Shown here: positions 45,052 to 49,749 of the stretch, in pieces
Numbering within the stretch: position 1 is the stretch's first letter
Layout: each line of letters opens with the position of its first letter
Origin: Microthyrium microscopicum
Lineage: Eukaryota; Ascomycota; Dothideomycetes; Microthyriales; Microthyriaceae
Direction of reading: 5' to 3'
Assembly (NCBI GenBank): GCA_010405405.1
Contig: MU004233.1
Span: forward strand, 1,501,122 to 1,565,121
DNA length: 64,000 nt
Position numbers and translations under genes: made by a program
The notes under the pieces: generated by a model
Databases searched by the model: none
What the model saw: the letters and a program-made list of their open reading frames with translations, nothing else
What the model was told of the DNA's origin: nothing

Positions 45052-45697
45052 CCGCATTATGCTGTTAGAGTTGGATTTGGCTCTATTTCGCTGTTCTTAA
45101 ATATGTTGATCAACCAAGTTCTTCATGTATCTTGCTACTGCAGTCCCTTCTTGTATTCAGTGCTAATGAAAACAATTTTGTCAATATACCAGAATTCAAA
45201 ATACTCCACGTCGCAGCGAACGTGCTACGAAACCTATCGAACTCCGCAAGCTCGTCTTGAGACCAAGCGCAGTCGTATTCATCCAGATCAACAATGCCCC
45301 TGTTATCTTTCTTTCTCGTCACAAAGCACAATACCACGGGCATGAATACTATACATCTGAACCAACGCACATCGTCTTCCATATAAAATATGCCCATTCC
45401 GGTGAACCTACTCAACATCCTCTCTATCGCCGTAGATTTTCTTCGACACTGAATACTCGTCATAATATAATTTCAGTTCCAAGTTCATTTTAGTGGAAAT
45501 CCACTTGTTCGAGACATAACCGCTTTGTTCCTGCAACTCCTTGTCTCTTTGTGATATCACCACAATCTCATTATCTACCTTGTTATACAAGTCGCTTAAT
45601 GAAAGATTATAAAATACCAAGATCTTCCGGATTTCAAGAGCATAGAGAACTTTAACGAATCATTCCCCAAAACCCTTCCAAATATCAACCTCTGACC
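45052..45697. other. Intergenic upstream of the four-copy array
   Basis: Holds the first upstream box of the array (45534-45553). No supported gene. Confidence 0.5.
45534..45553 (+). promoter_or_regulatory. Array upstream box 1
   Basis: CAACTCCTTGTCTCTTTGTG, 164 nt before the start codon of array copy 1 and followed by ACAATCTC. Versions occur before every array copy. Confidence 0.6.
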
Positions 45698-46477
45698 ATG
45701 GCCCGACGTTTTATTGCCCGCCCGGTATTTGCAGATAAGCTAACAACTGATGAACGGATTAAGATCAATAAGAAAAACAGAGCTAATATCAACCAGCAAG
45801 TAGATGTTGCCTCTTCTTCATCGGAACCGCAGATCATCCAGTTCAATAGCAGGTCTCCGGTCTCACTTAGGTCTAAGAGGTCCCAACGTAAACGCTATGA
45901 GTATATCCAAACCAAACTTTACAAGGAAGTTCTCTCCTACAACCACGAGCTCACAGAAGAGAACCAATTGACCTATTCCATGGCCTTGGGAGATGGCGAT
46001 GGCCCCATGACTGACTCAAGCCCCGAATCTTCCTCACCTTATTCTTACGAGATTCATCGCACAGATAGCTTTCTAACCGTGCTCGTCCGTTTAGCTAATG
46101 TGCCTTTCGAATCGGAATGGCAAGACCCCTACGAGCTTGAGTTCCCTCGCCCTGGCAGGAACGGGCCGGCCATCTACGGCGGTGCAGTTGTCGGGCCAGT
46201 GTTTGTTATTATTGTCAAGGTGAGCCCAGCTGCTCAGTTTGGACCAGGCGAGAAATGGCAACAGGACGGAAACTTCCAGTCCATAGCCTCCTCCCAAAGA
46301 GGTGAGAAGCTACGACTACAGAGCCAGGTCATTGTGAACAATGACTTCATTCGTGTCAACATGGGTACATGGAGCTCCATGTTTAGTTTGACGGTTGACC
46401 GTGAGACTGGTCAGCGATTCCTTTTTCCTGGGTTTGTGGACAGTGTGCGAAATTCGCAGGTGAGAAGACTCGAGTAG
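45698..46477 (+). CDS. Unknown four-copy family, copy 1
   Basis: A single exon of 259 aa with no signal peptide or membrane helix. Shared blocks in order: 'SSSSEPQIIQFNSRSPVS', a basic stretch, 'DGPMTDSS', 'YSYEIHRTDSFLTVLVRLAN', 'AIYGGAVV', 'VKVSPAAQFGPGEKW', 'VNNDFIRVNMG' and 'LTVDRETGQ'. The alternation of hydrophobic and polar residues after residue 110 suggests a beta-rich fold. It is the longest in the N-terminal basic region and has a short tail. I know no family for it. The four copies are all on the plus strand, about 1.1 kb apart. Confidence 0.8.
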   Translation: MARRFIARPVFADKLTTDERIKINKKNRANINQQVDVASSSSEPQIIQFNSRSPVSLRSKRSQRKRYEYIQTKLYKEVLSYNHELTEENQLTYSMALGDGDGPMTDSSPESSSPYSYEIHRTDSFLTVLVRLANVPFESEWQDPYELEFPRPGRNGPAIYGGAVVGPVFVIIVKVSPAAQFGPGEKWQQDGNFQSIASSQRGEKLRLQSQVIVNNDFIRVNMGTWSSMFSLTVDRETGQRFLFPGFVDSVRNSQVRRLE

Positions 46478-46560
46478 TCGATCCAAGAGAATAAATCACT
46501 AAGTAAATGAACAGCAGGCTGTTTTGGCATTGTTTGAATCTATGGCTCTTCCTTTTTTTG

Positions 46561-46582
46561 CAATCCTTTTGTCTCCTTGTGA
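46561..46582 (+). promoter_or_regulatory. Array upstream box 2
   Basis: CAATCCTTTTGTCTCCTTGT followed by GA, 173 nt before array copy 2 and followed by ACAATCCC. A diverged version of box 1. Confidence 0.5.
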
Positions 46583-46733
46583 TGAACTTAAACAATCCCA
46601 TTGTCTACGTTTACCACACCCCAATACATTGCCTTTGTCAAGGTTTAAAACTTGAGCATATATAGGTCCTGATATCCCAACTTTTTCGGGACATGAAAAC
46701 AACTTCTAAGAAACCACAACACGCATACCCACG

Positions 46734-47540: not shown

Positions 47541-47875
47541 TTGTTGTCTCTTAGTACATTTCAAAATTGCATGGTCTGGAACCTGTAATACTAAATTTGA
47601 ACGTGAAATGGCGAGTGTGTCCACTGCGCTCTACAACAAGCCTTCGTACAGCGGGTCCATATAGCTTGAATTGAATCAATTCCTTTTGTCCCCAACTCCT
47701 TGTCTCTTTATGTATCTCGACAATCTCCTTGTTCTGCTCTCAGTATACCAACGTTGTCTTTGTAAGATTTTAGTATATGTAGTCGCCGATATCTCGAAAT
47801 GTGAAAGGTATGAAAAATCCCTAACAGTCCACGCCACACCTTTTCAGAATTCATCCTATCGTGCCGAAAGATTAT
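47541..47875. other. Spacer between array copies 2 and 3
   Basis: Holds upstream box 3 and the GTG codon at 47861 that aligns with the ATG of copy 1. Confidence 0.5.
47693..47712 (+). promoter_or_regulatory. Array upstream box 3
   Basis: CAACTCCTTGTCTCTTTATG, one base different from box 1, 168 nt before the ancestral start position of copy 3 and followed by ACAATCTC. Confidence 0.6.
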
Positions 47876-48541
47876 ATGGATAAACAATCGATAGAGAAGA
47901 AGCATCAAACGCTCAAAGAGCATAATAGACTGGCTATCAATCGAGATGTAGATACCGCAGCATCATCTCCAGAACCACAGGTTGTTCACTTCAAAAGAAC
48001 TCCGGTCTCCCCCAAGTGTTACGTTTTCCGTTCGCGTAAGCCATACAAAAAGAAAGACCAGTCCCGTAATCTCGAAAAGCAGGTCGTTACAAGGAACCAT
48101 AACATAGAGCCCTACAAATATCCAAGCTTCACTTTGGTCTGCAACGAATTCGATGGTCCCATAATTGACCAAAGCCATGCCCGCTCACTGCCCTTTACAT
48201 ACCAAACTCGAAAAACGGATAAGTATCTGAGTGTGGCCGTCTCATACCAAGATGCGTTTCGCAGCACGGCGACAGACTGCATCGAGTTCCCTCACCAGGG
48301 CGGCAAAGCTATCTACGGTGGCGCTTTTGCTGATGGTGACTTTGGAGTCGTTCTCAAGGTAAGTCCGACAGCTCGGTTTGATCGGGGCACGACTTGGAAA
48401 GTGTTTGGAGGCTTGGATTCCGCTCTGTATGAGGTCCAAGTTACTAACGAGTACATCAGCATCACCATTTGTGTTGGAGTCCTTGAGTACTCGGTGCCTA
48501 TTTCTCGTGAAACGGGTCGTTACAAGAGTCTACCTGCGTAG
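47876..48541 (+). CDS. Unknown four-copy family, copy 3
   Basis: A single exon of 221 aa from the first in-frame ATG. The position matching the copy 1 start codon is GTG (47861), so the original start seems lost and translation probably begins five codons later. Blocks: 'SSPEPQVVHFKRTPVSPK', 'DGPIIDQS', 'FTYQTRKTDKYLSVAVSY', 'FPHQGGKAIYGGAFADG', 'LKVSPTARFDRG', 'VTNEYISITI' and 'VPISRETGRY'. LKVS is coded TCAAGGTAAGT. A perfect TACTAAC branch and CAG follow, giving the same 101-nt spacing as in copy 2. Confidence 0.78.
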   Translation: MDKQSIEKKHQTLKEHNRLAINRDVDTAASSPEPQVVHFKRTPVSPKCYVFRSRKPYKKKDQSRNLEKQVVTRNHNIEPYKYPSFTLVCNEFDGPIIDQSHARSLPFTYQTRKTDKYLSVAVSYQDAFRSTATDCIEFPHQGGKAIYGGAFADGDFGVVLKVSPTARFDRGTTWKVFGGLDSALYEVQVTNEYISITICVGVLEYSVPISRETGRYKSLPA

Positions 48542-49080
48542 ATGAGTAGGGCAGGAATGAAGATCGAGGTAAGTACAGATGCAACAGCAGAAAGAGGAGG
48601 ATAGAAGGACTAGAGATACGACCACGGTGGTCACCAAAGTGGCTTCAGCAATATCTCTTGATCAAACCTAACATGTAGGAATCCAGTCATGCTATCAAGC
48701 TTGTCAGCAAGAGCTGGTTTCCAAATTATGGAACAATGGTCTTAGTTTTTTGAGAGACCAGTAAGCAACTCATATTATGACTGATTCAATAGGAACTACA
48801 AAAGAATTTCAGCACACTGTATAGACTTGATAGCGAGTTCCATTCCCTCTTGCCATTACTGCACTCATAATAGGTCAACAAGGAGCACGCTGATATAGCG
48901 TGCATCGTATGAAATCAATTCCTTTGTCCCCAGCTCTCTTGTGTCTTTGTTATCTTTGAACAATCTCTTTATTTTATCTTTGTCGTAGTTAATTTACAGG
49001 CGAGCAAAATGTACATATGCCCATGAGACTCCGAGGAAGAGGCAGAGCATACCAGATATCGCTGCTCTTGAGACCTCATA
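48542..49080. other. Spacer between array copies 3 and 4
   Basis: Holds upstream box 4. No supported gene. Confidence 0.5.
48931..48950 (+). promoter_or_regulatory. Array upstream box 4
   Basis: CAGCTCTCTTGTGTCTTTGT, 150 nt before array copy 4 and followed by ACAATCTC. The preceding bases (ATCAATTCCTTTGTCCCC) are shared with box 3. Confidence 0.55.
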
Positions 49081-49749
49081 ATGTTTAACGTGCGACCCCA
49101 ATCCCCAACTCTCCAACAGGCTAGAGAAGATCTCATCCATTCATTGAGCCGAGTGCAAATTCGGATGTCTAACGGTTATATACGTCGGAGTTCGGATTCC
49201 TTGGAGCCACAAGTCATCTCTTGGGAAAGATATACTGTCAATAACTACCGTCGACTTCGAAATAGAAAATACAAGAGAGATGATGGCGCTCGCCTGCGAA
49301 AACGGGTTCTGAAGCGCAATCACAAGCGCCTTGGCCTGAGCAGCAAGCCTTTCGACGGACCCGTCCTTGACACCAAGACCTCACTCCCCTTTTCATATGA
49401 GGTGCGCAGCACGTACGACTGCGTGACTGTATCTGTCCGATACTGGGGCGCAGAAGCCAGGGGCAGAACAATCGGTGTATTTCCTCCTATGCCTGGCAAA
49501 GCTATTCTTGGGGGTGCATTGGCTGTAGGTCCATCCGTTACGGTTATTCTTAAGGTAAGTCCTGGTGCTTTTGCTCCAGGTTCAGTCGAAGCGTGGAAAC
49601 ATGATGGAGCGGTTGGTTCCTTTCGCTTTGAAACTTTTGTTGACCACAAGTACATCCGTATAGTTCTTACCGGACCTGACAAGGAGGCCAAGGTGCTTAT
49701 TGATCGAGAGTCACTTCAACGTGTTCCAAATTCCCGGTACTCGCCATAA
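49081..49749 (+). CDS. Unknown four-copy family, copy 4
   Basis: A single exon of 222 aa and the most diverged copy. Blocks: 'SSDSLEPQVISWERYTV', 'DGPVLDTK', 'FSYEVRSTYDCVTVSVRY', 'PMPGKAILGGALAVG', 'LKVSPGAFAPGS', 'VDHKYIRIVLTG' and 'VLIDRESLQRV'. The tryptophan-anchored basic stretch after block 1 ('RLRNRKYKRDD') is retained. LKVS again reads TTAAGGTAAGT, but no good branch plus acceptor follows at the same spacing. No membrane or export signal. Confidence 0.78.
   Translation: MFNVRPQSPTLQQAREDLIHSLSRVQIRMSNGYIRRSSDSLEPQVISWERYTVNNYRRLRNRKYKRDDGARLRKRVLKRNHKRLGLSSKPFDGPVLDTKTSLPFSYEVRSTYDCVTVSVRYWGAEARGRTIGVFPPMPGKAILGGALAVGPSVTVILKVSPGAFAPGSVEAWKHDGAVGSFRFETFVDHKYIRIVLTGPDKEAKVLIDRESLQRVPNSRYSP

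Follow-up and report, generated by a model that had tools for sequence, protein, structure and literature searches.

Four tandem paralogous genes, duplicated together with their promoter, in the fungus Microthyrium microscopicum

The array and a fifth paralogue

We analyzed a 64,000-nucleotide (nt) stretch of the Microthyrium microscopicum genome (assembly GCA_010405405.1, contig MU004233.1, positions 1,501,122 to 1,565,121 of the forward strand; hereafter the window, whose numbering is used unless a contig is named) and describe here four tandem open reading frames on its plus strand, c1 to c4, that encode paralogous proteins. The first frame, c1 (45698-46477), encodes 259 amino acids (aa) and matches the database protein P0001, with equal length and full identity, and the 268-aa database protein P0002 was taken as the product of c2 (46734-47540, 268 aa). 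Downstream lie c3 (47876-48541, 221 aa when counted from its ATG), the query of both structure models discussed below, and c4 (49081-49749, 222 aa). A GTG upstream of the c3 ATG, at 47861, is an unlikely start codon in a fungus.

The four frames can be aligned over most of their extent, with pairwise identities of 31-40% over 201-228 codons in the six possible pairs, and EPQ, DGP..D, KVSP, and other residues are invariant. Codon position 3 carries the most differences in all six pairs, as in coding sequence, with rates of 0.41-0.53, 0.39-0.47, and 0.57-0.65 for positions 1, 2, and 3, respectively. The original prediction, that these are four true tandem paralogues sharing an ordered set of motifs, is borne out by the alignment with small exceptions in c1, which reads GRNGPAIYGG and VKVSP, and in c3, which reads EPQVV. 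Among the 32 columns with an invariant residue (Met and Trp excluded), identical codons make up 95 of 192 pairs, compared to 65.5 expected from codon usage; since this is only modestly above chance, the copies are old or fast evolving, as had also been proposed. We regard the duplication and the coding status of the array as very probable.

Searching the genome with c3 recovered a fifth member, c5 (E value of 6.1e-6), a single-copy whole frame of 227 aa on the minus strand of the contig that carries the array (C4:2032948-2033628), ∼480 kb from it. The reverse search with c5 recovered the relationship (E 4.0e-6), while searches with c1, c2, and c4 gave the four tandem copies only and no c5. The protein retains DGP, KIYAAY in place of KAIYGG, KV, W, and V.N..I. 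The earlier count of four therefore holds for the tandem copies and had missed a paralogue elsewhere in the genome. A weak extra row on contig C15 in the c5 search (E 0.76, 68 residues) was not counted as a member. Both inner branches of a five-member tree are unresolved, and the order of duplication is not readable from the tree. Within ∼10 kb of c5 are genes encoding a Set1-type methyltransferase and a Trm112-like protein.

The duplicated unit includes the promoter

A 36-nt block, at least 61% identical among the copies, starts at 45515, 46543, 47674, and 48913, upstream of c1, c2, c3, and c4, respectively, and is followed by ACAATC in every case. The corresponding promoter blocks, all on the plus strand, span 45515..45577 for c1 (CAACTCCTTGTCTCTTTGTG ... 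ACAATCTC), 46543..46607 for c2, 47674..47735 for c3, and 48913..48975 for c4. The 17-mer CAACTCCTTGTCTCTTT occurs exactly at 45534 (c1) and 47693 (c3), the sole genome matches returned at up to one mismatch, and when the box is extended c1 and c3 agree at 19 of 20 bases, in keeping with the single-base difference reported before. Counted from its first base, the box lies 164 nt ahead of the c1 ATG and 183 nt ahead of the c3 ATG (168 nt ahead of the GTG).

For each of the six c1-c4 pairs, none of 60 shuffles reached the best ungapped upstream match. The 3' flanks are similar for c3 and c4 only (0/60 shuffles), the matches of the other five pairs being reached by 20-54 of 60. Since upstream sequence is common to all six pairs beyond what shuffles produce, the copied unit included the promoter, and that part of the original prediction stands. 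These comparisons show that the family expanded locally, a gene-plus-promoter unit of ∼1.0-1.2 kb being duplicated in tandem, with c5 as a single-copy relative 480 kb away. As a separate observation, the sequence at 49009-49023 upstream of c4, ATGTACATATGCCCA, and a sequence upstream of c5 (about -136), ATGTACATATACCCA, are identical at 14 of 15 positions, a match reached by 2 of 60 shuffles.

Search for relatives

Neither the five full-length members nor their five cores matched any Pfam-A family over its cut-off in searches up to an E value of 10; the single sub-threshold row was PF25667, for c2 only (E 0.52, 10.8 bits against a cut-off of 27). There was no significant match in NCBIfam, where the one row obtained, NF045998 (E 0.12, one of the five members), was dismissed as chance, no match in PHROGs, and none among PDB sequences up to an E value of 10. 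The profile search that had been proposed alongside the original prediction thus found nothing significant in Pfam-A, NCBIfam, or PHROGs.

Profiles built from four and five sequences recovered only c1 and c2 from a large protein database, an absence that is probably uninformative since the control protein found nothing there, not even itself. This single control was the neighboring 548-aa protein, for which 7993 candidates were scored and none reached an E value of 0.001. Given that the control did not recover itself, the database appears to have thin coverage of this genome and its relatives, which suggests that its silence says little about a restriction of the family to few fungi. Bacterial/archaeal and viral contigs were scanned with c3 alone and gave 18 and 136 pattern stretches, respectively, and no relative. 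Literature searches, none of them aimed at the family by name, listed no paper on it. Fungi often have tandem families that no catalogue lists, and the present one, likewise uncatalogued, is of this common evolutionary kind.

Predicted protein architecture

The core of c3 (48101..48538, plus strand; 146 aa modelled) was predicted as an all-β domain with ten strands in model residues 21-135. The model has a predicted local distance difference test (pLDDT) score of 80.1 and a predicted template modelling score of 0.79, and the mean pLDDT of the five models ranges from 77.7 to 80.1. Foldseek returned nothing at an E value of <0.001 against the PDB among 826 and 928 rows, and the viral fold library gave no such row among 1085. 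Structure prediction, also proposed earlier as a check, therefore yielded a ten-strand all-β core and no confident fold match. DNA sliding clamps, which made up many of the top fold rows, have template modelling (TM) scores of <0.2 and root mean square deviations near 19 and were rejected as β-meander artefacts, while a row for African swine fever virus p17 (E 0.52) was dismissed as chance.

The first 90 residues have an isoelectric point of 9.5-11.7 in all five members, and basic clusters are present in the N termini of c1-c4 and absent from that of c5. No hydrophobic N-terminal start could be seen by eye, in agreement with the absence of an export signal noted originally. The hydropathy maxima over 19 residues are 1.91 for c1 and 1.81 for c4, and both lie, by reading rather than by computed position, in the β core and not at the N terminus. 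Each protein has 0-4 cysteines. Twelve core columns are invariant in the five copies and, since the only charged residues among them are Asp, Lys, and Arg, this is not a catalytic-looking set, though catalysis is possible.

Taken together, each copy would give rise to its own soluble protein of 25-30 kDa, with an N-terminal arm of ∼90 residues that is basic and predicted to be disordered and, after it, a compact all-β domain of ten strands, the latter predicted with good confidence and carrying the DGP, GKAIYGG, LKVSP, and V.N..I motifs. The proteins would stay intracellular and are probably nuclear, and the β domain would act as a binding module, whether for protein, nucleic acid, or a ligand, rather than as an enzyme.

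The domain might instead be a far-diverged member of a known all-β superfamily, such as the Whirly/PUR folds, the lipocalin/FABP-like barrels, or the Ig-like sandwiches, missed because only five sequences were at hand. We consider this the strongest alternative, although still an unlikely one. An antiparallel β meander of similar size is shared with the Whirly (PF08536)/PUR-like fold, and the GKA motif found here may correspond to the KGKAAL of Whirly. The Whirly fold consists of two four-stranded sheets with helices, and its profile matched nothing in this genome up to an E value of 10, nor did it appear in the Pfam searches with members and cores. A lipocalin/FABP-like barrel is a closed meander barrel of eight to ten strands; three Foldseek rows for the core were FABPs (E 0.04-0.22, TM 0.26-0.31).

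ACAAAG sites in the upstream regions

The hexamer ACAAAG, mostly as CTTTGT on the gene strand, occurs at nine sites in the five 220-nt upstream regions (two, one, one, three, and two for c1 to c5). Shuffled sequences contain 0.91 sites on average (standard deviation of 0.95) and none of 1000 shuffles reached nine, the background being 0.12 sites per 220 nt in a 278.9-kb sample (c5 locus included) and 0.07 upstream of 29 long frames. Fungal HMG-box sites have ACAAAG as their core. The genome has nine HMG_box match rows above the cut-off, two of which are adjacent pieces. In Podospora anserina, PaHMG5, an HMG-box factor of the sexual cycle, binds (A/G)ACAAAGAA (PMC3730723). One perfect site of this kind is present upstream of c5, where 0.009 are expected per 220 nt, and none is found upstream of c1-c4. 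The Podospora consensus is thus perfect in the c5 promoter, and two candidate c4 sites are, by eye, one difference away from it, whereas in c1-c3 nothing beyond the ACAAAG core is present, and its surroundings differ. A looser core, A(A/T)CAA(A/T)G, precedes c1, c2, c4, and c5 but not c3. The common ACAAAG/CTTTGT promoter module suggests that the copies are probably coactivated by an HMG-box factor, and such switching would most likely take place at sexual or developmental transitions.

A parallel can be drawn with Neurospora, for which 670 lineage-specific genes (LSGs) are reported, more than a quarter of which show a response when the mating locus is disrupted (PMC10684091). The Neurospora LSGs resemble the present family in having few or no known domains, and their mating-locus response fits the HMG-site lead. 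They differ in lying near telomeres together with HET genes, while the array is located mid-contig (C4, 1.55 of 2.85 Mb). Clustering with HET genes in the Neurospora manner was considered and rejected, the nearest HET matches among those listed on C4 being at 1.422 Mb (∼124 kb upstream) and 1.855 Mb and not adjacent. The 36.9-Mb genome (36.88 Mb) as a whole has 153 HET-domain match rows, a rich set of the vegetative-incompatibility type, some of which, among the matches listed, contain internal stops.

A splice donor-like sequence within LKVSP

The Lys-Val-Ser codons of the LKVSP motif read AAG GTG AGC in c1 and AAG GTA AGT in c2, c3, and c4, so that all four tandem copies carry the sequence of a canonical splice donor (GTGAGC at 46220..46225 in the VKVSP of c1, and GTAAGT at 49555..49560 in the LKVSP of c4, both on the plus strand). 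In c2 and c3, sequence signals further delimit candidate introns or exitrons, both of exactly 101 nt and both with CTAAC and CAG, at 47232..47332 (GTAAGT ... GACTAAC ... CAG) and 48359..48459 (GTAAGT ... TACTAAC ... CAG) of the plus strand. The original description overlooked this donor-like coding. Its account of the genes as intronless holds in that the frames are open throughout; given these splice-like signals, it covers the open frame only.

LKVSP could accordingly be a working 5' splice site, with removal of the 101-nt exitron in c2 and c3 serving as an off-switch: since 101 is not a multiple of 3, excision would shift the frame, leave 171 aa (c2) and 169 aa (c3), and cut the β domain short where strand 6 ends. 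None of 2000 synonymous shuffles reproduced the four AAG-GTR-AGY donors, only 1 of 2000 gave an intron-like stretch in two copies, and none of 67 control frames (70 kb) had such a stretch. In the last part of the c1-c4 alignment, after the possible acceptor, the position 3 excess is missing (0.55, 0.48, and 0.55 for positions 1, 2, and 3 in 120 codon pairs), as would fit sequence that is not always translated, which makes the switch slightly less improbable.

Even so, we find the switch doubtful, more so than membership of a known superfamily. Counted over both strands of 278.9 kb, the intron-like pattern is found 15 times, compared to 20.2 times in shuffles, and is thus a poor marker of real introns here. 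The AGY serine codon is kept by descent, several of the surrounding invariant codons are just as fixed (P169, G173, A200, and F202 in 0-based alignment numbering), and codon identity is raised across columns 165-205 (0.58 versus 0.33-0.46 elsewhere) and not at the donor alone. Furthermore, c2 and c3 are not independent cases, c1 and c4 lack the full signal set, and c5 has no donor. Past VSP, the sequence inside the stretch is coding-like (0.46, 0.35, and 0.53) and aligns with c5 at 22% identity.

Neighboring genes

Downstream of the array, an intact 548-aa frame on the minus strand (50057-51703) has a sub-threshold match to DUF7730 (E 6.7e-4, 19.4 bits against a cut-off of 27). Upstream, a 396-aa frame on the plus strand (43764-44954) has degenerate repeats of the ERYIE/RYEE type and a HHHVHKHVHKHVH stretch in its C-terminal half, and no Pfam match. 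Farther away, at 13143-13976 (minus strand) and 15368-16006 (plus strand), a fragment resembling AIG1 GTPases (E 8.5e-5, short of the cut-off) lies ∼1.4 kb from a frame that looks Hsp70-like by eye on its translation. The G+C content of the window is about 47%.

Discussion

The account that we favor is that the array encodes soluble, probably nuclear, binding proteins under developmental control, and we give it as a whole a probability of about 0.4. Several points weigh against it. No fold match names a function, the C-terminal tail of c1-c4 lacks the position 3 excess, and c5 is without a recognized basic cluster and without the promoter block, its best upstream matches with c1, c2, c3, and c4 being reached by 60, 10, 60, and 2 of 60 shuffles, respectively. 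The ACAAAG sites of c1-c4 are partly common by descent and so do not amount to five independent cases, the motif was picked after the upstream sequences had been inspected, and the full Podospora consensus is present in c5 only, with c3 lacking even the looser core. Given this relatedness of the copies and the choice of the motif in hindsight, the HMG link is a lead and not a result.

Besides the two alternatives discussed above, the proteins could leave the cell by a route that needs no classical signal, as secreted effectors or as surface proteins. Small, fast-diverging, tandem families of β-domain proteins are typical of fungal effectors, but the basic N termini, the lack of a hydrophobic start by eye, and the low cysteine counts make this improbable. 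A composite picture is at least as improbable: a β-domain superfamily whose fold is uncatalogued would have undergone tandem expansion while controlled by HMG-box (mating or developmental) factors, and a coding splice donor conserved among the tandem copies would serve as a truncating off-switch. That the frames are functionless relics or chance openings is the least credible of all: although no relative was seen outside the genome in searches of limited reach (the protein database and the bacterial/archaeal and viral contigs), the four frames are long, open, and in register with a position 3 excess in every pair, their promoters match, and their motifs are invariant in five copies.

Returning to the reading as developmentally controlled binding proteins, the array offers a useful package, a confidently modelled all-β domain without an assigned fold together with a defined ACAAAG promoter module that points to regulators of sexual development. 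A conserved protein motif that overlaps a splice donor may also mislead gene prediction. If true, the HMG link would place this orphan family within a regulatory network that is already known.

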